A DNA stretch of 11,607 bases from Spirochaetia bacterium (GTDB lineage: Bacteria; Spirochaetota; Spirochaetia; Treponematales; Breznakiellaceae): positions 1-11,607 of the forward strand of contig BOAU01000067.1 in assembly GCA_026002025.1 (NCBI GenBank), read 5' to 3'. Each line of letters starts with the position of its first letter. The stretch's first letter is position 1. The notes beneath the pieces are model-generated. The model saw only the letters and a program-made list of their open reading frames with translations, was not told the origin of the DNA and did no database searches. Positions 1 through 11,607 of the stretch are shown in pieces. The position numbers and the translations under genes were made by a program.

Positions 1-441
1 TCCCCCTGTCCCCACGCTAACGCCTGCCCCCTTCCCGGCGGGCTCCACGCAAAATGGTGCCACTTTAATTTTGATACGCTTGACGCCCCCGCCGCATTAC
101 AGAGACTTTCCTCCGCAGCGGGTATCCCCAAGGAGCGGGCGGTCTTGAGTTTTCTGTTTGCGGGTACATCCGGGCCAGGCGGTCATCCTGCAGAAAAGGC
201 AGTTGATGCGAAACCGGTGACGCCATCCGCCGGGCTGCCCGTGCGAATCATCTCCGATGCCTTCCCGGTGCCGCCGGGCCGGTATGGGCGTTACGGCTGT
301 TCCGCGAAAGGCTTGATTTTGGCGGCGGGCACTCAGCAGACGGTGGAAAAACTACCCTCCGGGGCGCTGGTCAACATGGTCATGAAGGGAAAGGAAAAGC
401 CGGACCCCAAGAGCGGGGCGATAGTAGCGGCGGTGGAATAG
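1..441 (+). CDS. Rsm22-family ribosomal small-subunit protein/methyltransferase-like, C-terminal part (5' truncated by window edge)
   Basis: The frame is open from base 1 to the TAG at 439-441 (146 residues), so the gene begins outside the window; a TTG at 145 is internal, not the start. The visible part begins with a cysteine pattern C3-P-H5-x3-C9-P followed by W19-C20-H21-F. This is the signature of the C-terminal region of Rsm22/METTL17-like proteins. A fourth cysteine, C100, lies in a GRYGRYGC segment. In mitochondrial relatives four cysteines hold a 4Fe-4S cluster; that this copy binds one is inference. Family members are methyltransferase-like proteins associated with the small ribosomal subunit. 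The N-terminal SAM-binding half is missing here, so activity cannot be judged. The gene converges on the ORF6N gene with a 10-base gap and no convincing terminator between them. Confidence 0.78.
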   Translation, partial: SPCPHANACPLPGGLHAKWCHFNFDTLDAPAALQRLSSAAGIPKERAVLSFLFAGTSGPGGHPAEKAVDAKPVTPSAGLPVRIISDAFPVPPGRYGRYGCSAKGLILAAGTQQTVEKLPSGALVNMVMKGKEKPDPKSGAIVAAVE

Positions 442-451
442 CCGAAAAAAG

Positions 452-964
452 TTAAGGCCTAAAGCCGATTGGTTTTGTCGGGGGCGGCGGACTGGCGATA
501 AAGCCGTTCAGCGCCCTGATAATGTCATCCACCCGTTTGTCGTTGCGTTCGATGTATAAGAGCAGCAGTTTGCGCAATTCCAGAATTTGTTCGTTTGTGC
601 CGGTCTGCGCGAGCGCATACTGACGCATTTGCACAAAAACGCGCATGATTTTGATGTTTACATCAATTGCAATCTCGCTTTTCAAAACGCTGGACAGCAT
701 CAGAATGCCGTGTTCGGTAAAAGCGTAAGGTTTATACTTTCGTGAATCCCGGCTAAAGGTCACAAATTGTGACCTTAAAGATTCCCATTCTTCCGTATTC
801 AATTGAAACATGAAATCCTGCGGAAACCGCTCCATATTGCGTTTTACCGCCTGATTTAAGACTTTGGTTCCAACCTGATACAGCTGCGCCAGGTCGCTGT
901 CAAGCATCACTTTACACCCGCGAATTTCGTGGATCATACTGGGGATGGGTAGTGCTTCGTCCAT
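452..964 (-). CDS. ORF6N-domain DNA-binding protein
   Basis: A 170-residue protein. The start ATG at 964-962 is chosen because GGAGG lies 5 bases upstream of it; a longer frame reaches 1009 but its start has no such site. Residues about 9-95 match the ORF6N domain (IHEIRGCKVMLDSDLAQLY, then VLNQAVKRNMERFP and the PYAFTEHGILMLSSVLKS block). This domain is found in phage antirepressor-like and stand-alone bacterial proteins. The C-terminal third is helical and charged (LELRKLLLLYIERNDKRVDDI), ending in a proline-rich tail. The codons for L63-T69 (LRSQFVT) form a perfect DNA palindrome that recurs twice in the gene's own upstream region. Autoregulation through those sites is plausible but unproven. 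The exact role of ORF6N proteins is poorly known. No phage genes are nearby, so this is a stand-alone accessory gene. Confidence 0.88.
   Translation of the reverse strand: MDEALPIPSMIHEIRGCKVMLDSDLAQLYQVGTKVLNQAVKRNMERFPQDFMFQLNTEEWESLRSQFVTFSRDSRKYKPYAFTEHGILMLSSVLKSEIAIDVNIKIMRVFVQMRQYALAQTGTNEQILELRKLLLLYIERNDKRVDDIIRALNGFIASPPPPTKPIGFRP
741..780. repeat. 40-bp direct repeat, copy inside the ORF6N gene
   Basis: About 34 of 40 bases match 1081-1120, exactly 340 bases away. It contains the perfect palindrome 756-776 (10-bp arms around one base, core GGTCACAAATTGTGACC). On the minus strand it encodes LRSQFVTFSRDSR of the ORF6N protein, in the middle of the domain. Confidence 0.85.
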
Positions 965-1026
965 AATTTCCTCCACTGCATATGATACACTCTTGGTAAA
1001 AAAATACACTAAAAAGCGCTAAAAAC

Positions 1027-1040
1027 ATGACATTTGTCAT
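1027..1040. repeat. Short palindrome ATGACA-TT-TGTCAT
   Basis: Perfect 6-base arms separated by two bases, next to the larger palindrome at 1045-1071 in the ORF6N upstream region. It could be a half-related operator or chance in AT-rich DNA. Confidence 0.35.
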
Positions 1041-1044
1041 ATTT

Positions 1045-1071
1045 TTTGAGGTCACAATTTGTGACCTCAAA
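1045..1071. promoter_or_regulatory. Perfect 27-bp palindrome, putative operator between ORF6N gene and ogt
   Basis: Two 13-base arms surround a single central base, with core GGTCACAATTTGTGACC. The core is the same as in the palindrome inside the ORF6N gene (756-776). Centre-to-centre distance to the imperfect copy at 1092-1120 is 48 bases. It lies in the divergent intergenic region, upstream of both genes. The single-base loop and the lack of a directly following T-run make a transcription terminator unlikely; a binding site for a dimeric regulator is more likely. Its binding protein is unknown. Confidence 0.6.
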
Positions 1072-1080
1072 GTTTTTCCC

Positions 1081-1120
1081 CGTGAGTCCCGGTTAAAGAT
1101 CACAAATCGTGACCTTTAAC
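1081..1120. repeat. 40-bp direct repeat, intergenic copy
   Basis: About 34 of 40 bases match 741-780. Its minus-strand translation in the matching frame is RSRFVIFNRDSRG, clearly related to the ORF6N internal segment. It includes the imperfect palindrome 1092-1120 (14-base arms around one base, two mismatches). It could be a relic of a duplicated ORF6N fragment, a dispersed palindromic element or an operator. Confidence 0.82.
1092..1120. promoter_or_regulatory. Imperfect 29-bp palindrome, putative operator upstream of ogt
   Basis: Arms 1092-1105 and 1107-1120 match at 12 of 14 positions around one central base. It is a degenerate version of the 27-bp palindrome at 1045-1071. It ends 18 bases before a perfect TATAAT hexamer (1138-1143). 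A protein bound here would cover the -35 position of that candidate ogt promoter. Confidence 0.5.
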
Positions 1121-1137
1121 TTTGTTTTCTTCTTATC

Positions 1138-1143
1138 TATAAT
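1138..1143 (+). promoter_or_regulatory. ogt: Candidate -10 hexamer (TATAAT) for ogt
   Basis: Perfect -10 consensus. The -35 equivalent (TTTAAC at 1115-1120, 17-base spacing) is weak and sits in the palindrome 1092-1120. The expected transcription start near 1150 would leave only a 13-base leader with GGAGG at its very beginning. This is unusual and lowers confidence. Confidence 0.35.
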
Positions 1144-1162
1144 GACCAGAGGAGGCCCTCTT

Positions 1163-1660
1163 ATGTTCACCTATACCTGTTCCCTTGATACCCCTTTGGG
1201 GCCAATGACCGCCGCGGCTGAGGGCGAGGCCCTTACCGGGCTCTGGTTCGTGGGACAGAAGTATTATCCGGCCAAGACGGATGCCTGGAGCAACAAGCCC
1301 GATTACCCGGTTTTTGCGGCGCTGCGGGCCTGGCTGGGAGCCTACTTCGAGGGTAAGCAGCCCCCTATTGATTTTCCCGTTAATCCGCAGGGGACCGCCT
1401 TTCAAAATGCGGTATGGGAAATTCTTTTGCAGATTCCTTACGGAAAAGTTAGTACCTATGGTGAGATTGCAAAACAGCTTGCCCATAAGCAGAACACAGC
1501 TTCAATGTCGGCGCAGGCGGTTGGCGGCGCGGTTGGGCATAATCCCATTTCCCTGGTGATTCCCTGCCACCGGGTGGTGGGGGCCGATAAAAGTTTGACC
1601 GGCTACGCAGGGGGCCTCGATAAGAAGGAATATTTGCTGAAGCTTGAGGGGTACAGGTGA
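1163..1660 (+). CDS. ogt: Methylated-DNA-[protein]-cysteine S-methyltransferase
   Basis: A 165-residue protein of normal family length. ATG at 1163 is chosen because GGAGG at 1151-1155 lies 7 bases upstream and the protein then begins directly with the MFTYTCSLDTPLG strand; in-frame starts at 1109 and 1142 are poorer. The suicide enzyme moves the alkyl group from O6-alkylguanine (and O4-alkylthymine) in DNA to its own cysteine. The active site PCHRV is complete, with nucleophile C135. It is preceded by the helix-turn-helix region (FQNAVWEILLQIPYGKVSTYGEIA) and the VGGAVGHNPISLVI block, and followed by the GYAGGLDKKEYLLKLEG tail. The N-terminal domain is short, as in Ogt rather than Ada. The stop overlaps the next gene by 4 bases (GTGA), indicating translational coupling. 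Confidence 0.95.
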   Translation: MFTYTCSLDTPLGPMTAAAEGEALTGLWFVGQKYYPAKTDAWSNKPDYPVFAALRAWLGAYFEGKQPPIDFPVNPQGTAFQNAVWEILLQIPYGKVSTYGEIAKQLAHKQNTASMSAQAVGGAVGHNPISLVIPCHRVVGADKSLTGYAGGLDKKEYLLKLEGYR

Positions 1661-2565
1661 AATTTTCAAAACGATTTTTTCCTGTATTGCTGATCATTGC
1701 GGCGGCGGTAATTCTTGCCGGCTGTTCCAAGCTCCCCCTGCTCAAAAACCTTCTGCAGACTCCCCGGGCGCAGCCTGAGCTTGCGGATGTCATTGCCGAA
1801 TTAAGTACGGACCCTGATTTGCCGGGCGGCGGTGGGAATGACGCCGGTGAATTTAAAAAAATTGTGGCGGATGTTCTTATCGCCGCGGGAATCCCGCCTG
1901 GGCTTTCACAGAAACTGGAAAATGCCGCAGCGGAAAGTCCCGCCTTTATCCTGGACCTTTGGGCCTGCCTTGAGGGGGACCCTTTTTTACGGATACTGGT
2001 GGATAAACAGCACACCCTTCCCGAAGGCTACGAACCGGATGACCTTGTTGAACTAAAAGGCGGCGGTTCCTTTCAGATTGGGAGGCGGGGGCTCATGCTC
2101 CGCAGCGCCGCTGCAACTGCCCTTGAGGAAATGGCCGCCGCTGCAAAGGCCGATGGGGTCACCTTGATTGCCTCTTCCAGTTACCGGTCCTACGATTACC
2201 AGGTGGAGGTGTACGGCCGCGTTGTTAAGGAAATGGGGCAGGAAGCGGCGGATCGGGAATCGGCGCGGCCGGGCCACAGTCAGCACCAGACCGGGCTCGT
2301 GGTGGACTTCGGTTCCATCGACGACAGCTTTGCGGAAACAAAAGCGGGCCGCTGGATGGCAGCCAACGGGAGCCGCTTCGGTTGGTCCATTTCATTCCCC
2401 GACGGCTACGAGGATGTCACCGGTTACCGCTGGGAAAGCTGGCACTACCGTTACGTGGGCCTTGACCTTGCCGCCTTCATCGACACCTGGTTTGAGGGTA
2501 TTCAGCAGTACGCCTTACAGTTTATCCACGAATGGGAAAAGGCCCACGCCGATCTTCCGCAGTAA
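1657..2565 (+). CDS. VanY-type D-alanyl-D-alanine carboxypeptidase, lipoprotein (peptidase M15B)
   Basis: A 302-residue protein starting at GTG 1657, overlapping the ogt stop. A lipoprotein signal peptide is clear: KRF near the start, a hydrophobic core, then lipobox LAGC at residues 20-23 with C23 as the lipidated residue. Residues about 30-125 are an unassigned linker region. The M15B catalytic domain follows (about 135-285). SYRSYDYQ is the substrate-side motif; SQHQTGLVVDF gives zinc ligands H210 and D217; ESWHYRYVG gives the general base E260 and zinc ligand H263. All key residues are present, so an active Zn peptidase trimming the terminal D-Ala of peptidoglycan stem peptides outside the cytoplasmic membrane is expected. 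Vancomycin resistance is not implied, because no vanHAX genes are present. The gene ends two bases from the converging kinase gene. Confidence 0.9.
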   Translation: MKFSKRFFPVLLIIAAAVILAGCSKLPLLKNLLQTPRAQPELADVIAELSTDPDLPGGGGNDAGEFKKIVADVLIAAGIPPGLSQKLENAAAESPAFILDLWACLEGDPFLRILVDKQHTLPEGYEPDDLVELKGGGSFQIGRRGLMLRSAAATALEEMAAAAKADGVTLIASSSYRSYDYQVEVYGRVVKEMGQEAADRESARPGHSQHQTGLVVDFGSIDDSFAETKAGRWMAANGSRFGWSISFPDGYEDVTGYRWESWHYRYVGLDLAAFIDTWFEGIQQYALQFIHEWEKAHADLPQ

Positions 2566-2567
2566 TA

Positions 2568-3125
2568 CTACAGCGACTTTAAGTAGCCCAACAGTATTGC
2601 TAAACCCCTGTTGTCGGGGTTGTCGAAAAGGCCGTTCAGCACAATGTCCGCGTGCCAGCGGGTTGGTTCCACCAGTTCATCGTGGCGGTAGCGCACCGTA
2701 TCCAGATAGCGGTTTACTACTTCGTCAAAGCTTTGGCCCCGCTGGGTGTGACGGCGGATACGGCGGACCAGCCGTTCATCGCTTTTAAGATCCACGAAAA
2801 CTTTAAGGTCCAGCCGTTTGCGGATCTTCTCAAGATGAAAGGCAAAGAGCCCGTCGATGATAACAAAGTCAGGCTTTGCGTTTATCGCCTCTTCAAAGGC
2901 GGCGTAGAGTTCCTCCAGCCGCATGCCGTCTGGGTGGTTGTGTTCAACGTATTCGATCCCCGTTATGGGGGCGATGGTCCTGGCCGGGGGATTCATGAAG
3001 TAGGTGTCCATGTTTATCACCGTTACCGTGCGGGGCGCGAGGGCGGCCTTCAGTTTTTCTGCGGCAAAGGATTTTCCGCTGCAGGTGCCCCCCGCAAAAC
3101 CGATGATGTAAGGTTTCTTGTCCAT
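2568..3125 (-). CDS. Uridine kinase-like P-loop kinase (phosphoribulokinase/uridine kinase family)
   Basis: A 185-residue protein. The P-loop GGTCSGKS is at residues 12-19. The NMDTYF segment with D40 and Y42 corresponds to the substrate-side D-x-Y motif of uridine kinases. A Walker-B-like strand VIIDGLFAF is followed by the arginine-rich lid RRIRRHTQRGQSF and the EPTRWHADIVLNG end block typical of the family. It is a little shorter than classic Udk (about 210 residues). The sequence supports an NTP-dependent small-molecule kinase, probably acting on a nucleoside; the true substrate cannot be read off. GAGGAG lies 10 bases before the ATG, a slightly long spacing. It lies 41 bases downstream of the MATE gene on the same strand, so the two are probably co-transcribed. 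Confidence 0.85.
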   Translation of the reverse strand: MDKKPYIIGFAGGTCSGKSFAAEKLKAALAPRTVTVINMDTYFMNPPARTIAPITGIEYVEHNHPDGMRLEELYAAFEEAINAKPDFVIIDGLFAFHLEKIRKRLDLKVFVDLKSDERLVRRIRRHTQRGQSFDEVVNRYLDTVRYRHDELVEPTRWHADIVLNGLFDNPDNRGLAILLGYLKSL

Positions 3126-3166
3126 AATAATATAACTCCTCTGTATTTATGCGGTTTCCACTTTAC

Positions 3167-4585
3167 TTAGGCATCTACTGATGCCATGGCCCGTAGTCTT
3201 TTCAGTTCAAAGAAGATCATAATCCCGGTAAGCAAAATTGCAAAGCCGTCCGCCACCGGCGCGGCTGCAATTACCCCGTGGAGCCCCCAGATTTTTCCGA
3301 AGATCAGTATACAGGGGATCAGCACTATAAACTGCCTGAGCATTGACAGAAAGATTGAAACTTTGGGCCGCCCGGTAACCACATACATATTGGTGGACAC
3401 GATCTGGAAGCCGTTCAGGGGCAGCATGATCATCATCACCCGCATGGCCCATGGCGCAAACTTAAGGAGGGCCTCGCTGCCATCGGGGGCGAAGATGCTG
3501 ATCAGGAAATCGGGGAAGAGTTCTCCGATTGCGAAGCCCAGGGTGCAGATCGCGGTGGCCGCCGTGATGGCCCCCAGGTAGGCCTTGAGTACTCGGTGAT
3601 ATTTTTTCGCCCCGTAGTTGTAACCCAGGATCGGCTGGGCTCCCTGGTTGATGCCGAAGACCGGCATCAGGATCAGCATAGAGATGGAGCCCACGATGTT
3701 CATCCCCGACAGGGCGATGTCCCCGCCGTTGGCAACCCCCAGGGCATCCGCGCCGTACCAGCCCATGCTGGTGTTGTAGAGGAGCTGCACCCCGGACATG
3801 ATGAATTGCAGAATGAACTGCGCCGAGCCAAAGGCTATGATTTGTCCGATGATCCCCAGGGAAGGCTTGAAGGTCTTGAGCCGCAGCTTGATCACCGGCT
3901 GTTTCCCAAAACTGAAAGCCAGTATCCAGATTAACGAGGCGAGCTGGGAAATGATCGTTGCCCAGGCGGCCCCTTCGACACCCCAGTCAAACACAAAGAT
4001 GAACAGGGGGTCCAGGAGCATGTTCAGCCCCGCGCCGATGAACATGCTGATCATGGTGATGTTGGGAAAGCCCTGGGCGCGGGTGCAGTGGGAAAAACCG
4101 AAGCCCACCATGGAAAAAATCGATCCGTAAAGGATGATCCGAAAATAATCCCGTGAATAGCTGAGGGCCTCGCTCCCTTCCTGGGCGCCCAGCACGGAAA
4201 GGAGGGGCTCCATAAAGACAAGCCCTGCCGCCATAAAGATAATTCCCATGAGCAGCAGCAGGCAGAAGCAGTGGTTCAGGGCGTTTTCCGCTTCTTCCTG
4301 GCGGCCCTGGCCGAGCCGCATGGAGATCATGTTTGCCGACCCGATCCCAAAGAGCATGGCAAAGGCCATGCTGATGGTCATCAGGGGCAGTACCAGGGAA
4401 AGGCCCCCCAGGGCCACCTCGTTTACCCCCCGGCCCACGAAGATCCGGTCCACCACGTTGTAGAGGGCGTTGACCAGCATCCCGGATATGGCCGGAATGG
4501 AAAAGCGGAGCAGCAGCTTTCCGACGGGCTCAGTGCCCAGGCGGCTGGCGGCATCGGTTTGTTTTGCAGAAACGGAATCAGACAA
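3167..4585 (-). CDS. MATE family efflux transporter (MepA/DinF-like)
   Basis: A 472-residue membrane protein with about 12 predicted transmembrane helices and no signal peptide, the standard size for the multidrug and toxic compound extrusion family. The segment around residues 22-70 (LLLRFSIPAISGM, ALYNVVDRIFVG, GLSLVLPLM) is the hallmark of the MepA-like branch. The second half repeats the pattern, including FGINQGAQPILGYNYGAKK. Such pumps export cationic drugs, dyes or metabolites by Na+ or H+ antiport; the substrate here is unknown. The start is TTG at 4585-4583, with AAGGAG 6 bases upstream (4592-4597). A sigma70-like promoter lies at 4618-4646. The gene is transcribed away from the metal-sensor operon and followed by the kinase gene. 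Confidence 0.93.
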   Translation of the reverse strand: MSDSVSAKQTDAASRLGTEPVGKLLLRFSIPAISGMLVNALYNVVDRIFVGRGVNEVALGGLSLVLPLMTISMAFAMLFGIGSANMISMRLGQGRQEEAENALNHCFCLLLLMGIIFMAAGLVFMEPLLSVLGAQEGSEALSYSRDYFRIILYGSIFSMVGFGFSHCTRAQGFPNITMISMFIGAGLNMLLDPLFIFVFDWGVEGAAWATIISQLASLIWILAFSFGKQPVIKLRLKTFKPSLGIIGQIIAFGSAQFILQFIMSGVQLLYNTSMGWYGADALGVANGGDIALSGMNIVGSISMLILMPVFGINQGAQPILGYNYGAKKYHRVLKAYLGAITAATAICTLGFAIGELFPDFLISIFAPDGSEALLKFAPWAMRVMMIMLPLNGFQIVSTNMYVVTGRPKVSIFLSMLRQFIVLIPCILIFGKIWGLHGVIAAAPVADGFAILLTGIMIFFELKRLRAMASVDA

Positions 4586-4617
4586 TGTTATCTCCTTGAA
4601 ACTTTTTTAACTTGCCT

Positions 4618-4646
4618 ATCATATGCCGTATATTTTAAAGGATCAA
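4618..4646 (-). promoter_or_regulatory. Sigma70-like promoter of the MATE-kinase unit
   Basis: On the minus strand the -35 box TTGATC (4646-4641) and the -10 box TATGAT (4623-4618) are separated by 17 bases. The -10 ends 32 bases before the TTG start of the MATE gene. The outer ArsR-type operator (4674-4693) lies 28 bases upstream of the -35 box, too far to block it directly. Confidence 0.6.
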
Positions 4647-4673
4647 CTGGTCCAGTGGCAGGGTAAAAAAATC

Positions 4674-4693
4674 ATCATTTGAATGCTTGTTCA
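4674..4693 (+). promoter_or_regulatory. Outer ArsR-type operator (putative)
   Basis: ATCATTTGAATG-C-TTGTTCA repeats the sequence at 4741-4760 with a single difference (C for A). It contains the TGAA...TTCA half-site pattern typical of ArsR/SmtB operators. It lies upstream of the -35 box of the sensor promoter, between the two divergent promoters. Confidence 0.6.
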
Positions 4694-4705
4694 TCCATTC
4701 AACTA

Positions 4706-4734
4706 TTGACAAAAAATTTATTCGAGGTTATATT
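4706..4734 (+). promoter_or_regulatory. Sigma70-like promoter of the metal-sensor/ATPase operon
   Basis: A perfect -35 TTGACA (4706-4711), a 17-base spacer and the -10 TATATT (4729-4734). The expected transcription start near 4741 coincides with the beginning of the inner operator, an ideal arrangement for repression by the sensor. Confidence 0.8.
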
Positions 4735-4746
4735 TACCTTATCATT

Positions 4747-4776
4747 TGAATGATTGTTCAATTATTCAATCATTCA
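4747..4776 (+). promoter_or_regulatory. Inner ArsR-type operator with perfect 10-bp inverted repeat
   Basis: TGAATGATTG (4747-4756) and its exact reverse complement CAATCATTCA (4767-4776) are separated by 10 bases. The site overlaps the expected transcription start and ends 6 bases before the ribosome-binding GGAGG of the sensor gene. It is the probable main operator of the sensor. Together with 4674-4693 it brackets the core promoter. Confidence 0.75.
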
Positions 4777-4792
4777 GGTAATGGAGGATGAT

Positions 4793-5158
4793 ATGGGTAA
4801 ATCGAATGCCATTTTGGTTTTTCATCAGGATGATGTTGACCATGCTATGGAAAGCCTTCCACCCCAGGAGGAGCTCAACGATCTGGGTGAATTCTTCAAG
4901 GTCCTGACCGACCCCACCCGGCTCAAGATACTTTACGCCCTGGGCATGGGGGAACTCTGCGTTTTTGACCTTTCGGTGACCATCGGGGCCAGCGTGTCCT
5001 CGGTCAGCCATCACCTTGCGGGGCTTAAACGGGTACGCCTGGTCAAGGCCCGGCGGGACGGCCGGATTATCTACTATTCATTGGATGACGATCATGTCAA
5101 TTCAATCGTCAAATATGCCCGTGAACATTTAGGAGAACACGAACATGGAAATGCTTAA
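4793..5158 (+). CDS. ArsR/SmtB-family metal-sensing repressor (CadC/SmtB-like)
   Basis: A 121-residue winged-helix regulator. ATG 4793 is preferred because GGAGG lies 5 bases upstream (4783-4787); in-frame starts at TTG 4754 and ATG 4781 would overlap the operator or the ribosome site. The core LTDPTRLKILYAL, the recognition helix SVSSVSHHLAGLKR and the wing ARRDGRIIYYSLDD are all clear. The C-terminal helix carries D99-x-H101 and H112-x2-E115, the same spacing as the Zn(II) site of SmtB and CadC. The ELC56VF58DL segment resembles CadC's ELCVCDL, but the second cysteine is phenylalanine, so the CadC-type thiolate Cd/Pb site looks incomplete. Expected role: it represses its own operon and releases DNA when Zn, Cd or a similar ion binds. 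Its 3' end overlaps the ATPase start by 14 bases. Confidence 0.93.
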   Translation: MGKSNAILVFHQDDVDHAMESLPPQEELNDLGEFFKVLTDPTRLKILYALGMGELCVFDLSVTIGASVSSVSHHLAGLKRVRLVKARRDGRIIYYSLDDDHVNSIVKYAREHLGEHEHGNA

Positions 5159-5966
5159 GGAACGCCCCTCGGCGGTTGAAGAAGATTGCTGCCCGGCCTG
5201 CGCCGCGGCCCACGGTCATAGGGCCGCCGCTCAGAGCCATGCGCCTGCTGCCGGCTGCGGCTGCTGCGATGATGACGACGATTGCTGCGGTACAAATGAC
5301 CATGACAACGAAGGCCGCATTATTCACATAGGCTCCTACAGTCTGCCCGTAAAACGGATCGTTGTTTTCGGCGCGGCCCTGGGGCTCTGGATAATAGGCT
5401 TCCTGTTGATGGAATTTGGCCCGGCGGCGGGTTATTGGCGATTTTTCCCGCTTATTCCGCTGGCCGCGTCCTACGCACTGGCGGGGCTGCCCGTTCTGCG
5501 CCGCGCCTTCCGCAATATCAGACGAGGGCGGGCGCTGGATGAAAATTTCCTCATGTCCATCGCCACCATCGGGGCCTTTGCCATCGGTGAATGGGAGGAG
5601 GCCGTGGGGGTCATGATCTTCTATATGATTGGGGAGATGATTCAGGAGGCTGCGGTTGACCGTTCCCGTTCCTCCATCAATGCGCTTCTGGCGCTCAAGC
5701 CTGATACCGCGCGGGTGCAAACCGGGGGCGAATGGGTGGAGAGCCCCGCCGCCGAAGTAAGCCCCGGTACATTGGTGCTGGTCCGCCCCGGTGAACGGAT
5801 ACCCCTGGACGGCGTCGTGGTTGAAGGCTCAGGCTCGGTGGACGCATCCATGCTCACCGGGGAATCCCGGCCGGTCCCGGTCGCCCCCGATACGGAAGTG
5901 CGATCCGGTACCCTGTCGGTGGACGGCGTCCTCGTGATACGGACCACGGCGACCGCAGCCTCCTGA
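5145..5966 (+). pseudogene. P1B-type heavy-metal-transporting ATPase, N-terminal part, truncated by the fold-back
   Basis: Start ATG 5145 has AGGAG 9 bases upstream and lies inside the end of the sensor gene. Genuine sequence runs to 5951 (about 269 residues); the last codons to the TGA at 5964-5966 come from the inverted copy. Residues 1-54 form a Cys/His/Asp-rich tail (C15, C16, C19, H23, H25, H32, C38, C40, C41, five Asp at 42-46, C47, C48, H53) where relatives usually carry a ferredoxin-like GMxCxxC domain. Membrane segments lie at about 70-92, 98-118 and 134-165. The actuator domain follows with TGES at 238-241. The ion-binding CPC helix, the DKTGT phosphorylation site and the ATP-binding domain are all missing. 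Intact relatives are about 650-750 residues long and export Zn, Cd or Pb. Truncation is most likely by artefact, so the native gene may be whole. Confidence 0.88.
5657..5951 (+). other. Unique central spacer (loop) of the palindrome
   Basis: This is the only 295 bases present once. On the plus strand it continues the metal-ATPase frame without a break (from Asp172 through the actuator domain with TGES at residues 238-241). It is therefore contiguous with the left arm. Read on the minus strand it gives a nonsense tail to the right-arm copy of the ATPase. The fold-back joint is its right edge at 5951/5952. Confidence 0.93.
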
Positions 5967-6463
5967 ATCATCTCCCCAATCATATAGAAGATCATGACCC
6001 CCACGGCCTCCTCCCATTCACCGATGGCAAAGGCCCCGATGGTGGCGATGGACATGAGGAAATTTTCATCCAGCGCCCGCCCTCGTCTGATATTGCGGAA
6101 GGCGCGGCGCAGAACGGGCAGCCCCGCCAGTGCGTAGGACGCGGCCAGCGGAATAAGCGGGAAAAATCGCCAATAACCCGCCGCCGGGCCAAATTCCATC
6201 AACAGGAAGCCTATTATCCAGAGCCCCAGGGCCGCGCCGAAAACAACGATCCGTTTTACGGGCAGACTGTAGGAGCCTATGTGAATAATGCGGCCTTCGT
6301 TGTCATGGTCATTTGTACCGCAGCAATCGTCGTCATCATCGCAGCAGCCGCAGCCGGCAGCAGGCGCATGGCTCTGAGCGGCGGCCCTATGACCGTGGGC
6401 CGCGGCGCAGGCCGGGCAGCAATCTTCTTCAACCGCCGAGGGGCGTTCCTTAAGCATTTCCAT
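5952..6463 (-). pseudogene. Inverted copy of the metal ATPase N-terminus, cut after residue 170-171
   Basis: Mirror of 5145-5656. It carries the same Cys/His tail and three to four membrane segments but ends at the spacer. The open frame runs on to 5642, yet everything after V171 is the antisense of the ATPase actuator region and is not a real protein end. No actuator, phosphorylation or ATP-binding domain is left. Confidence 0.88.
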
Positions 6464-6815
6464 GTTCGTGTTCTCCTAAATGTTCACGGGCATATTTGAC
6501 GATTGAATTGACATGATCGTCATCCAATGAATAGTAGATAATCCGGCCGTCCCGCCGGGCCTTGACCAGGCGTACCCGTTTAAGCCCCGCAAGGTGATGG
6601 CTGACCGAGGACACGCTGGCCCCGATGGTCACCGAAAGGTCAAAAACGCAGAGTTCCCCCATGCCCAGGGCGTAAAGTATCTTGAGCCGGGTGGGGTCGG
6701 TCAGGACCTTGAAGAATTCACCCAGATCGTTGAGCTCCTCCTGGGGTGGAAGGCTTTCCATAGCATGGTCAACATCATCCTGATGAAAAACCAAAATGGC
6801 ATTCGATTTACCCAT
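6450..6815 (-). CDS. ArsR/SmtB-family repressor (inverted copy)
   Basis: Identical mirror of the sensor gene at 4793-5158, with the same ribosome site, operators and promoter. It should not be counted as a second locus unless the duplication is proven in native DNA. Confidence 0.9.
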   Translation of the reverse strand: MGKSNAILVFHQDDVDHAMESLPPQEELNDLGEFFKVLTDPTRLKILYALGMGELCVFDLSVTIGASVSSVSHHLAGLKRVRLVKARRDGRIIYYSLDDDHVNSIVKYAREHLGEHEHGNA

Positions 6816-6831
6816 ATCATCCTCCATTACC

Positions 6832-6861
6832 TGAATGATTGAATAATTGAACAATCATTCA
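6832..6861 (-). promoter_or_regulatory. Inner ArsR-type operator (inverted copy)
   Basis: Mirror of 4747-4776, with the same perfect 10-bp inverted repeat. Confidence 0.7.
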
Positions 6862-6873
6862 AATGATAAGGTA

Positions 6874-6902
6874 AATATAACCTCGAATAAATTTTTTGTC
6901 AA
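6874..6902 (-). promoter_or_regulatory. Promoter of the sensor operon (inverted copy)
   Basis: Mirror of 4706-4734: TTGACA, 17 bases, TATATT on the minus strand. Confidence 0.75.
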
Positions 6903-6914
6903 TAGTTGAATGGA

Positions 6915-6934
6915 TGAACAAGCATTCAAATGAT
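6915..6934 (-). promoter_or_regulatory. Outer ArsR-type operator (inverted copy)
   Basis: Mirror of 4674-4693. Confidence 0.55.
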
Positions 6935-6961
6935 GATTTTTTTACCCTGCCACTGGACCAG

Positions 6962-6990
6962 TTGATCCTTTAAAATATACGGCATATGAT
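6962..6990 (+). promoter_or_regulatory. Promoter of the MATE-kinase unit (inverted copy)
   Basis: TTGATC at 6962-6967, 17 bases, TATGAT at 6985-6990; mirror of 4618-4646. Confidence 0.58.
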
Positions 6991-7022
6991 AGGCAAGTTA
7001 AAAAAGTTTCAAGGAGATAACA

Positions 7023-8441
7023 TTGTCTGATTCCGTTTCTGCAAAACAAACCGATGCCGCCAGCCGCCTGGGCACTGAGCCCGTCGGAAAGCTGCTGCTC
7101 CGCTTTTCCATTCCGGCCATATCCGGGATGCTGGTCAACGCCCTCTACAACGTGGTGGACCGGATCTTCGTGGGCCGGGGGGTAAACGAGGTGGCCCTGG
7201 GGGGCCTTTCCCTGGTACTGCCCCTGATGACCATCAGCATGGCCTTTGCCATGCTCTTTGGGATCGGGTCGGCAAACATGATCTCCATGCGGCTCGGCCA
7301 GGGCCGCCAGGAAGAAGCGGAAAACGCCCTGAACCACTGCTTCTGCCTGCTGCTGCTCATGGGAATTATCTTTATGGCGGCAGGGCTTGTCTTTATGGAG
7401 CCCCTCCTTTCCGTGCTGGGCGCCCAGGAAGGGAGCGAGGCCCTCAGCTATTCACGGGATTATTTTCGGATCATCCTTTACGGATCGATTTTTTCCATGG
7501 TGGGCTTCGGTTTTTCCCACTGCACCCGCGCCCAGGGCTTTCCCAACATCACCATGATCAGCATGTTCATCGGCGCGGGGCTGAACATGCTCCTGGACCC
7601 CCTGTTCATCTTTGTGTTTGACTGGGGTGTCGAAGGGGCCGCCTGGGCAACGATCATTTCCCAGCTCGCCTCGTTAATCTGGATACTGGCTTTCAGTTTT
7701 GGGAAACAGCCGGTGATCAAGCTGCGGCTCAAGACCTTCAAGCCTTCCCTGGGGATCATCGGACAAATCATAGCCTTTGGCTCGGCGCAGTTCATTCTGC
7801 AATTCATCATGTCCGGGGTGCAGCTCCTCTACAACACCAGCATGGGCTGGTACGGCGCGGATGCCCTGGGGGTTGCCAACGGCGGGGACATCGCCCTGTC
7901 GGGGATGAACATCGTGGGCTCCATCTCTATGCTGATCCTGATGCCGGTCTTCGGCATCAACCAGGGAGCCCAGCCGATCCTGGGTTACAACTACGGGGCG
8001 AAAAAATATCACCGAGTACTCAAGGCCTACCTGGGGGCCATCACGGCGGCCACCGCGATCTGCACCCTGGGCTTCGCAATCGGAGAACTCTTCCCCGATT
8101 TCCTGATCAGCATCTTCGCCCCCGATGGCAGCGAGGCCCTCCTTAAGTTTGCGCCATGGGCCATGCGGGTGATGATGATCATGCTGCCCCTGAACGGCTT
8201 CCAGATCGTGTCCACCAATATGTATGTGGTTACCGGGCGGCCCAAAGTTTCAATCTTTCTGTCAATGCTCAGGCAGTTTATAGTGCTGATCCCCTGTATA
8301 CTGATCTTCGGAAAAATCTGGGGGCTCCACGGGGTAATTGCAGCCGCGCCGGTGGCGGACGGCTTTGCAATTTTGCTTACCGGGATTATGATCTTCTTTG
8401 AACTGAAAAGACTACGGGCCATGGCATCAGTAGATGCCTAA
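7023..8441 (+). CDS. MATE family efflux transporter (inverted copy)
   Basis: Identical mirror of 3167-4585 and complete. The TTG start at 7023 is preceded by AAGGAG at 7011-7016. Followed after 41 bases by the kinase copy. Confidence 0.91.
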   Translation: MSDSVSAKQTDAASRLGTEPVGKLLLRFSIPAISGMLVNALYNVVDRIFVGRGVNEVALGGLSLVLPLMTISMAFAMLFGIGSANMISMRLGQGRQEEAENALNHCFCLLLLMGIIFMAAGLVFMEPLLSVLGAQEGSEALSYSRDYFRIILYGSIFSMVGFGFSHCTRAQGFPNITMISMFIGAGLNMLLDPLFIFVFDWGVEGAAWATIISQLASLIWILAFSFGKQPVIKLRLKTFKPSLGIIGQIIAFGSAQFILQFIMSGVQLLYNTSMGWYGADALGVANGGDIALSGMNIVGSISMLILMPVFGINQGAQPILGYNYGAKKYHRVLKAYLGAITAATAICTLGFAIGELFPDFLISIFAPDGSEALLKFAPWAMRVMMIMLPLNGFQIVSTNMYVVTGRPKVSIFLSMLRQFIVLIPCILIFGKIWGLHGVIAAAPVADGFAILLTGIMIFFELKRLRAMASVDA

Positions 8442-8482
8442 GTAAAGTGGAAACCGCATAAATACAGAGGAGTTATATTATT

Positions 8483-9040
8483 ATGGACAAGAAACCTTAC
8501 ATCATCGGTTTTGCGGGGGGCACCTGCAGCGGAAAATCCTTTGCCGCAGAAAAACTGAAGGCCGCCCTCGCGCCCCGCACGGTAACGGTGATAAACATGG
8601 ACACCTACTTCATGAATCCCCCGGCCAGGACCATCGCCCCCATAACGGGGATCGAATACGTTGAACACAACCACCCAGACGGCATGCGGCTGGAGGAACT
8701 CTACGCCGCCTTTGAAGAGGCGATAAACGCAAAGCCTGACTTTGTTATCATCGACGGGCTCTTTGCCTTTCATCTTGAGAAGATCCGCAAACGGCTGGAC
8801 CTTAAAGTTTTCGTGGATCTTAAAAGCGATGAACGGCTGGTCCGCCGTATCCGCCGTCACACCCAGCGGGGCCAAAGCTTTGACGAAGTAGTAAACCGCT
8901 ATCTGGATACGGTGCGCTACCGCCACGATGAACTGGTGGAACCAACCCGCTGGCACGCGGACATTGTGCTGAACGGCCTTTTCGACAACCCCGACAACAG
9001 GGGTTTAGCAATACTGTTGGGCTACTTAAAGTCGCTGTAG
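8483..9040 (+). CDS. Uridine kinase-like P-loop kinase (inverted copy)
   Basis: Identical mirror of 2568-3125 and complete. GAGGAG at 8467-8472 lies 10 bases before the ATG. Confidence 0.83.
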   Translation: MDKKPYIIGFAGGTCSGKSFAAEKLKAALAPRTVTVINMDTYFMNPPARTIAPITGIEYVEHNHPDGMRLEELYAAFEEAINAKPDFVIIDGLFAFHLEKIRKRLDLKVFVDLKSDERLVRRIRRHTQRGQSFDEVVNRYLDTVRYRHDELVEPTRWHADIVLNGLFDNPDNRGLAILLGYLKSL

Positions 9041-9042
9041 TA

Positions 9043-9951
9043 TTACTGCGGAAGATCGGCGTGGGCCTTTTCCCATTCGTGGATAAACTGTAAGGCGTAC
9101 TGCTGAATACCCTCAAACCAGGTGTCGATGAAGGCGGCAAGGTCAAGGCCCACGTAACGGTAGTGCCAGCTTTCCCAGCGGTAACCGGTGACATCCTCGT
9201 AGCCGTCGGGGAATGAAATGGACCAACCGAAGCGGCTCCCGTTGGCTGCCATCCAGCGGCCCGCTTTTGTTTCCGCAAAGCTGTCGTCGATGGAACCGAA
9301 GTCCACCACGAGCCCGGTCTGGTGCTGACTGTGGCCCGGCCGCGCCGATTCCCGATCCGCCGCTTCCTGCCCCATTTCCTTAACAACGCGGCCGTACACC
9401 TCCACCTGGTAATCGTAGGACCGGTAACTGGAAGAGGCAATCAAGGTGACCCCATCGGCCTTTGCAGCGGCGGCCATTTCCTCAAGGGCAGTTGCAGCGG
9501 CGCTGCGGAGCATGAGCCCCCGCCTCCCAATCTGAAAGGAACCGCCGCCTTTTAGTTCAACAAGGTCATCCGGTTCGTAGCCTTCGGGAAGGGTGTGCTG
9601 TTTATCCACCAGTATCCGTAAAAAAGGGTCCCCCTCAAGGCAGGCCCAAAGGTCCAGGATAAAGGCGGGACTTTCCGCTGCGGCATTTTCCAGTTTCTGT
9701 GAAAGCCCAGGCGGGATTCCCGCGGCGATAAGAACATCCGCCACAATTTTTTTAAATTCACCGGCGTCATTCCCACCGCCGCCCGGCAAATCAGGGTCCG
9801 TACTTAATTCGGCAATGACATCCGCAAGCTCAGGCTGCGCCCGGGGAGTCTGCAGAAGGTTTTTGAGCAGGGGGAGCTTGGAACAGCCGGCAAGAATTAC
9901 CGCCGCCGCAATGATCAGCAATACAGGAAAAAATCGTTTTGAAAATTTCAC
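9043..9951 (-). CDS. VanY-type D,D-carboxypeptidase lipoprotein (inverted copy)
   Basis: Identical mirror of 1657-2565 and complete, with the lipobox and all zinc ligands unchanged. Overlaps the ogt copy by 4 bases. Confidence 0.88.
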   Translation of the reverse strand: MKFSKRFFPVLLIIAAAVILAGCSKLPLLKNLLQTPRAQPELADVIAELSTDPDLPGGGGNDAGEFKKIVADVLIAAGIPPGLSQKLENAAAESPAFILDLWACLEGDPFLRILVDKQHTLPEGYEPDDLVELKGGGSFQIGRRGLMLRSAAATALEEMAAAAKADGVTLIASSSYRSYDYQVEVYGRVVKEMGQEAADRESARPGHSQHQTGLVVDFGSIDDSFAETKAGRWMAANGSRFGWSISFPDGYEDVTGYRWESWHYRYVGLDLAAFIDTWFEGIQQYALQFIHEWEKAHADLPQ

Positions 9952-10445
9952 CTGTACCCCTCAAGCTTCAGCAAATATTCCTTCTTATCGAGGCCCCCTG
10001 CGTAGCCGGTCAAACTTTTATCGGCCCCCACCACCCGGTGGCAGGGAATCACCAGGGAAATGGGATTATGCCCAACCGCGCCGCCAACCGCCTGCGCCGA
10101 CATTGAAGCTGTGTTCTGCTTATGGGCAAGCTGTTTTGCAATCTCACCATAGGTACTAACTTTTCCGTAAGGAATCTGCAAAAGAATTTCCCATACCGCA
10201 TTTTGAAAGGCGGTCCCCTGCGGATTAACGGGAAAATCAATAGGGGGCTGCTTACCCTCGAAGTAGGCTCCCAGCCAGGCCCGCAGCGCCGCAAAAACCG
10301 GGTAATCGGGCTTGTTGCTCCAGGCATCCGTCTTGGCCGGATAATACTTCTGTCCCACGAACCAGAGCCCGGTAAGGGCCTCGCCCTCAGCCGCGGCGGT
10401 CATTGGCCCCAAAGGGGTATCAAGGGAACAGGTATAGGTGAACAT
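9948..10445 (-). CDS. ogt: Methylated-DNA-[protein]-cysteine S-methyltransferase (inverted copy)
   Basis: Identical mirror of 1163-1660 and complete, with the PCHRV active site intact. Confidence 0.93.
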   Translation of the reverse strand: MFTYTCSLDTPLGPMTAAAEGEALTGLWFVGQKYYPAKTDAWSNKPDYPVFAALRAWLGAYFEGKQPPIDFPVNPQGTAFQNAVWEILLQIPYGKVSTYGEIAKQLAHKQNTASMSAQAVGGAVGHNPISLVIPCHRVVGADKSLTGYAGGLDKKEYLLKLEGYR

Positions 10446-10487
10446 AAGAGGGCCTCCTCTGGTCATTATAGATAAGAAGAAAACAAA

Positions 10488-10516
10488 GTTAAAGGTCACG
10501 ATTTGTGATCTTTAAC
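10488..10516. promoter_or_regulatory. Imperfect 29-bp palindrome (inverted copy)
   Basis: Mirror of 1092-1120. Confidence 0.48.
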
Positions 10517-10536
10517 CGGGACTCACGGGGAAAAAC

Positions 10537-10563
10537 TTTGAGGTCACAAATTGTGACCTCAAA
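10537..10563. promoter_or_regulatory. Perfect 27-bp palindrome (inverted copy)
   Basis: Mirror of 1045-1071. In this orientation its minus-frame partner is easy to read: the codons spell T-L-R-S-Q-I-V-T-S-K, echoing the ORF6N internal motif. Confidence 0.58.
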
Positions 10564-10643
10564 AAATATGACAAATGTCATGTTTTTAGCGCTTTTTAGT
10601 GTATTTTTTTACCAAGAGTGTATCATATGCAGTGGAGGAAATT

Positions 10644-11156
10644 ATGGACGAAGCACTACCCATCCCCAGTATGATCCACGAAATTCGCGGGTGTAAAGTG
10701 ATGCTTGACAGCGACCTGGCGCAGCTGTATCAGGTTGGAACCAAAGTCTTAAATCAGGCGGTAAAACGCAATATGGAGCGGTTTCCGCAGGATTTCATGT
10801 TTCAATTGAATACGGAAGAATGGGAATCTTTAAGGTCACAATTTGTGACCTTTAGCCGGGATTCACGAAAGTATAAACCTTACGCTTTTACCGAACACGG
10901 CATTCTGATGCTGTCCAGCGTTTTGAAAAGCGAGATTGCAATTGATGTAAACATCAAAATCATGCGCGTTTTTGTGCAAATGCGTCAGTATGCGCTCGCG
11001 CAGACCGGCACAAACGAACAAATTCTGGAATTGCGCAAACTGCTGCTCTTATACATCGAACGCAACGACAAACGGGTGGATGACATTATCAGGGCGCTGA
11101 ACGGCTTTATCGCCAGTCCGCCGCCCCCGACAAAACCAATCGGCTTTAGGCCTTAA
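10644..11156 (+). CDS. ORF6N-domain protein (inverted copy)
   Basis: Identical mirror of 452-964 and complete. GGAGG at 10634-10638 lies 5 bases before the ATG at 10644. The coding palindrome is at 10832-10852. Confidence 0.86.
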   Translation: MDEALPIPSMIHEIRGCKVMLDSDLAQLYQVGTKVLNQAVKRNMERFPQDFMFQLNTEEWESLRSQFVTFSRDSRKYKPYAFTEHGILMLSSVLKSEIAIDVNIKIMRVFVQMRQYALAQTGTNEQILELRKLLLLYIERNDKRVDDIIRALNGFIASPPPPTKPIGFRP

Positions 11157-11166
11157 CTTTTTTCGG

Positions 11167-11607
11167 CTATTCCACCGCCGCTACTATCGCCCCGCTCTTG
11201 GGGTCCGGCTTTTCCTTTCCCTTCATGACCATGTTGACCAGCGCCCCGGAGGGTAGTTTTTCCACCGTCTGCTGAGTGCCCGCCGCCAAAATCAAGCCTT
11301 TCGCGGAACAGCCGTAACGCCCATACCGGCCCGGCGGCACCGGGAAGGCATCGGAGATGATTCGCACGGGCAGCCCGGCGGATGGCGTCACCGGTTTCGC
11401 ATCAACTGCCTTTTCTGCAGGATGACCGCCTGGCCCGGATGTACCCGCAAACAGAAAACTCAAGACCGCCCGCTCCTTGGGGATACCCGCTGCGGAGGAA
11501 AGTCTCTGTAATGCGGCGGGGGCGTCAAGCGTATCAAAATTAAAGTGGCACCATTTTGCGTGGAGCCCGCCGGGAAGGGGGCAGGCGTTAGCGTGGGGAC
11601 AGGGGGA
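11167..11607 (-). CDS. Rsm22-family protein, C-terminal part (inverted copy, 5' truncated by window edge)
   Basis: Identical mirror of 1-441. It is cut at the very same base as the left copy, as expected when both window ends are the same genomic point. Confidence 0.76.
   Translation of the reverse strand, partial: SPCPHANACPLPGGLHAKWCHFNFDTLDAPAALQRLSSAAGIPKERAVLSFLFAGTSGPGGHPAEKAVDAKPVTPSAGLPVRIISDAFPVPPGRYGRYGCSAKGLILAAGTQQTVEKLPSGALVNMVMKGKEKPDPKSGAIVAAVE

Follow-up and report, generated by a model that had tools for sequence, protein, structure and literature searches.

A palindromic 11.6-kb spirochete contig as a probable inverted amplification chimera

Introduction

Can a spirochete chromosome carry a perfect palindrome of 11.6 kb, or does such a structure arise on the way from the cell to the assembly? 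The question is raised by a stretch of 11,607 bases from a Spirochaetia bacterium (the window), in which two inverted copies of the same genes surround a short central loop that lies within a gene for a P-type ATPase of the cadmium/zinc type. We conclude that the palindrome almost certainly does not exist in the chromosome, and that a 5.9-kb stretch of the latter was copied back on itself in amplification. In full, the explanation to which we assign a probability of about 0.92 is that multiple displacement amplification (MDA) of a treponeme-type spirochete from the termite gut produced an inverted chimera, which assembly then turned into a palindromic contig.

Geometry of the palindrome

Comparison of the window with its own reverse complement gave two arms that are inverted copies of each other with 0 mismatches, separated by an unpaired centre of 295 bases (Table 1). 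An earlier note, made from the sequence alone, had described a near-perfect palindrome with a 295-base loop, which understates the identity of the arms. BLAST aligned them over 5,663 bases at 99.965% identity, the alignment running 7 bases into the loop. The palindrome is beyond chance. Both arms stop at the identical base inside one open reading frame (ORF), as the same note had it; this ORF is the 3´ part of an Rsm22-like gene at 1-441, with its copy at 11167-11607. In the protein database, the window's 273-residue ATPase fragment (P0001) is found on one contig, the longest being 11,607 bases; thus the window is apparently an entire contig, without flanks into which it could be extended.

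Native order of the locus in relatives

A scan of genome_contigs with the protein of the MATE pump gene, which precedes the loop in the arm, confirmed 203 relatives. The best 80 loci were fetched, each with no more than 10 kb of sequence to either side of the MATE gene (1,094,537 bases in total). L001, from Spirochaetia bacterium MS502-68 (BNVE01000032.1, MATE identity 86%), is the first of the 80; L035, from Spirochaetia bacterium PG1894_85 (BOBW01000076.1), has the highest MATE identity among them, 98% over the 328 residues present. L001 is collinear, in one orientation, with window positions 1-1657, 1770-3130 and 3191-5947 at 78-84% nucleotide identity, positions 1658-1769 and 3131-3190 having no alignment in it. 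L035, whose contig ends in the MATE gene, matches 3603-5951 at 92% identity over 2350 columns. Both relatives contain the forward order only, i.e. the second segment of the window is inverted relative to them. Beyond window base 1, the homologous sequence of L001 continues straight through the same gene.

The ATPase gene runs past the equivalent of window position 5951 in L001 and L035, to 706 and 699 residues in total. When the L035 protein was used as a query across the 80 loci (L035 being therefore the query's own source), the ATPase was present in four of them, L035, L001, L013 and L030, and in 4/4 it passes unbroken through the joint to residue 698-699 of the 699-residue query. BLAST found inverted repeats with a length of 100 bases or more and an identity of 95% or more in 0/80 related loci over the whole 1,094,537 bases; the same method recovers the window's own inverted repeat. 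The 22-base joint sequence had no match in the 80 fetched loci or in viral_contigs; genome_contigs and metagenome_contigs were not searched with it.

Five related genomes were compared with window 3167-5951. The MATE region was present in 5/5, a strong ATPase match in one (G004) and short, weak ones in two (G003 and G005); no contig of the five matched this segment on both strands, a result that adds little, as only 40 candidates were scored in three of the genomes. A protein search with the MATE sequence gave a 95% identical protein (P0241, a cluster of 5) on a 38,481-base Spirochaetia bacterium contig.

The interrupted ATPase

Two protein searches with the ATPase, one of them length-limited, yielded 240 relatives (the best 120 listed in each), of which 231 reach residue 262 of the window fragment. 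Beyond this residue, 202 extend by over 60 residues and 29 by 0-60; all 29 come from the length-limited search and include the window's own protein. The chimeric tail was encountered in a single one of the 240 listed proteins, the window's P0001. The nearest other ATPases among the matches listed, P0121 (the L035 protein itself) to P0124, have 673-706 residues. No relative was found in viral_contigs searched with the ATPase.

The window breaks the protein at residue 269-271, before the motifs CPC, DKTGT and GDGIND, which are at 338, 382 and 596 of P0121. Given the roles which we take these motifs to have in P-type ATPases, neither of the two ATPase ORFs of the window would be expected to work as a pump, and the contig holds no intact copy. 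Between the ATPase fragment and L035, the nonsynonymous and synonymous substitution rates are 0.064 (dN) and 0.357 (dS). The ratio of about 0.18 indicates constraint, and hence a gene that was intact until recently, which fits a fresh event, be it technical or in vivo.

P0002, on a contig of 1,519 bases, is an ATPase fragment of 301 residues with 72% identity; it follows the native sequence for about 16 residues past the window's break and then has an unrelated tail. It may represent a further break or chimera in this part of the ATPase.

The joint

From base 5952 onwards the window has ACCGCAGCCTCC, which belongs to the inverted arm. At this place the native sequence goes on as ACCGCAGAAGAT in L001, sharing 7/7 bases with the inverted arm before the two diverge. 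In L035 it is ACTGCGGAAAAT, with 2 contiguous bases in common and 5/7 overall, both differences being at third codon positions. Judged from these relatives, the switch probably took place over a short match of 2 to 7 bases, 295 bases from the point where the reverse copy starts.

These features allow the following course of events to be proposed. Synthesis by the phi29 polymerase would have proceeded rightwards along the chromosome and into the ATPase gene, as far as about 5951-5958. The 3´ end of the new strand, whose last bases would be about ACCGCAG, may then have come free and paired with CTGCGGT, some 295 bases upstream, on a strand of the same polarity; its extension would have written the reverse complement of all that had already been copied. 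The assembler would have walked the arm, the loop and then the same arm reversed, and both contig ends would stop at the same base because both arms are one path of the graph. Re-priming after branch migration, hairpin self-priming and template switching would each give such an upstream geometry.

Table 1. Features of the window on which the fold-back reading is based
Feature	Position	Strand	Evidence
Left arm, ordinary chromosomal segment	1-5656	+	Pfam on 8 proteins; L001 collinearity in three pieces
Loop, next 295 native bases of the ATPase gene, single copy	5657-5951	+	within L035 and L001 alignments
Right arm, probable fold-back copy; exact reverse complement of 1-5656	5952-11607	-	0 mismatches
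Joint overlap (microhomology) ACCGCAG, start of inverted arm and native continuation of L001	5952-5958	+	L001 7/7
CTGCGGT, proposed annealing place of the freed 3´ end	5650-5656	+	sequence; annealing proposed
Truncated P-type ATPase ORF, 273 residues, chimeric tail	5145-5966	+	
Mirror ORF of the truncated ATPase from the other arm, reading the loop backwards; not taken as a gene	5642-6463	-	

Comparison with known amplification chimeras

The earlier note preferred a fold-back artefact of amplification or assembly. Besides the unbroken ATPase in the four loci and in the nearest proteins, this preference is supported by published data on MDA. Of 475 chimeras, 406 were inversions, and in 337 of these 406 the joined segments lay less than 10 kb apart; more than 70% of chimeras had a priming complementarity of 2-21 nucleotides, and hairpin self-priming and template switching were argued not to be major routes of their formation (Lasken and Stockwell 2007, PMC1855051). 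The distance between the segments peaks at 250-300 nucleotides and their overlap at 6 nucleotides, mostly 5-8 (Tu et al. 2015, PMC4595205). The window shares with these phi29 chimeras the inverted second segment, the joining of segments within 10 kb, a distance of 295 nucleotides that falls at the peak, and the native order in relatives; its overlap, if it is 7 nucleotides as in L001, compares with a peak of 6, and both the 7 nucleotides read from L001 and the 2 contiguous ones read from L035 lie within the 2-21 range. It differs in being a finished 11.6-kb contig and not a read, and amplification of the sample is here deduced. Palindromes in the Pacasus paper offer a further parallel, since there too artificial inverted duplications enter contigs of amplified DNA; that work deals with long reads from plants and gorilla, the window being a bacterial contig (PMC6218980).

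The relatives point to a likely source. One study deposited genomes of single bacterial cells from the gut of Reticulitermes speratus, amplified by MDA, as BNTM01-BOCE01, among them 15 + 35 Spirochaetia; its own method gave 6.28% chimeric reads for E. coli and 8.22% for a mock community (PMC9579161). The accessions of L001 (BNVE01) and L035 (BOBW01), the two closest named relatives, fall within this range as read from the alphabetical order of prefixes, which again favours the artefact. We infer that the window derives from this termite-gut data set or from a similar amplified one.

Weighing of the explanations

Several points speak against an MDA chimera or weaken the case for it. The inverted-repeat control says little on how frequent such repeats are in amplified assemblies: 76 of the 80 clipped loci are without the ATPase at the E-value limit used, and only L001, L035 and L064 look, by title and accession, like single-cell genomes. 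The cluster of the ATPase fragment comprises 2 member sequences on 1 listed contig, and the second member might share the truncation. The overlap in the window's own genome could, judged from L035, be just 2 bases, and template switching in vivo is also able to leave short overlaps. Finally, the case for an MDA origin is made by way of the relatives.

Identical arms and a short joint overlap are equally expected of a fresh in vivo event, i.e. of a real, very recent head-to-head chromosomal duplication of the tandem-inversion-duplication or origin-dependent inverted-repeat amplification (ODIRA) type, made by template switching in this cell or in a subpopulation. We regard this as very improbable, and give the same low standing to its specific form, a 5.7-kb duplication in a subpopulation of a termite-gut spirochete through a match of at most 7 bases; a variant would be an amplicon of palindromic form with the genes of the metal regulator and the multidrug pump. 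Duplications of this type, too, join inverted copies at a short match. The window differs from them in that its contig has neither a unique flank on either side nor a second inversion joint (it is too short to show that these are missing genome-wide), and in that the structure is absent from the relatives examined: none of the four ATPase-holding loci has it, and a comparable inverted repeat occurs in 0/80 loci. Moreover, the contig is left without an intact ATPase, base 1 is no boundary, as L001 homology goes on through the same gene, and bacteria maintain long perfect palindromes poorly when the loop is short. The 295-nucleotide spacing, which falls on the mode of MDA chimeras, also counts against it (PMC4595205). 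The earlier note proposed to compare read depth, about 2:1 between arms and loop being taken to fit a real duplication. This criterion is flawed: a depth ratio near 2:1 would not prove one, because a chimera that arose early in MDA would, once amplified, likewise have both arms for each loop.

The same geometry would result from a fold-back without MDA, through a hairpin adapter missed in long reads or a mis-join in a short-read graph. The Pacasus paper counts missed SMRTbell adapters among the causes of palindromic reads in an unamplified control, 0.5% of whose reads were called palindromic (PMC6218980). A missed adapter folds the sequence at the end of the molecule and would be expected to leave next to no native loop and no overlap, so that a native loop of 295 nucleotides and an overlap of up to 7 are better explained by polymerase re-priming; we consider such an origin quite improbable. 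Hardly credible is a linear replicon that is palindromic or ends in hairpins, of the kind found in the spirochete Borrelia. The relatives are spirochetes and hairpin telomeres, when read through, give palindromes; here, the centre of the palindrome is internal coding sequence of a conserved ATPase that continues in relatives, and in L001 the same genes adjoin ORFs which, from their translations, we take to be der- and ptsI-like. A plasmid or palindromic replicon was also rejected on the records: none of 72,556 plasmid and none of 50,697 phage records covers 80% of window 1-5951. There were 42 plasmid records matching at 60-80% identity, five of these covering 2-3% of this half-window; the phage records that matched, 3 in number, cover 3-5% of it and lie entirely in the ORF6N region.

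With the MDA chimera as the favoured explanation, the genes of the contig are to be counted once, not twice, and the advice of the earlier note to halve the gene counts was right. It would be a clean example of an amplification chimera carried through to a complete contig, in which all genes appear twice and the truncated ATPase ORFs are false; one of these ORFs has entered the protein database (P0001). We suggest, from this contig only, that symmetric ends, a loop near 250-300 nucleotides and a native overlap of 5-8 nucleotides together form a candidate flag by which such contigs may be recognized without reads.

Gene content of the arm and minor observations

The Pfam scan took in 8 proteins from one arm and the loop. 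In order, the arm carries the 3´ end of the Rsm22-like gene (a weak match of 20.4 bits, the cut-off being 23), an ORF6N-domain gene, an O6-methylguanine methyltransferase of ogt type, a VanY-type carboxypeptidase, a uridine-kinase-like gene, the MATE pump, an arsR-family regulator and the start of the P-type ATPase. Transposase or recombinase domains were found in none of the 8 proteins, which bears out the earlier remark that the window has no such gene; insertion of a mobile element was rejected on this ground. Neither a tRNA nor an Rfam match at the gathering score is present in the window.

Upstream of the uridine-kinase-like gene, L001 possesses a repeated stretch (11464-11655) in whose translation RNFVALRFTC occurs three times. 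It looks like a small tandem repeat; none of the frames of the window contains the motif's core.

A 17-base palindrome close to GGTCACAAATTGTGACC is present in three copies, at 758-774, 1050-1066 and 1098-1114, plus the mirror copies in the other arm. The ORF6N-domain gene (452-1009, minus strand) contains one of them and has the other two upstream; those at 758 and 1098 agree over 34 bases with 4 mismatches. L001 has two such copies, at 13829, upstream of its own ORF6N gene (13922-14446), and at 14112, inside that gene. Elsewhere among the other 79 loci, one copy each was detected in L020 and L062. The upstream copy looks as if it were either a remnant of the coding copy or an operator for self-regulation of the gene.

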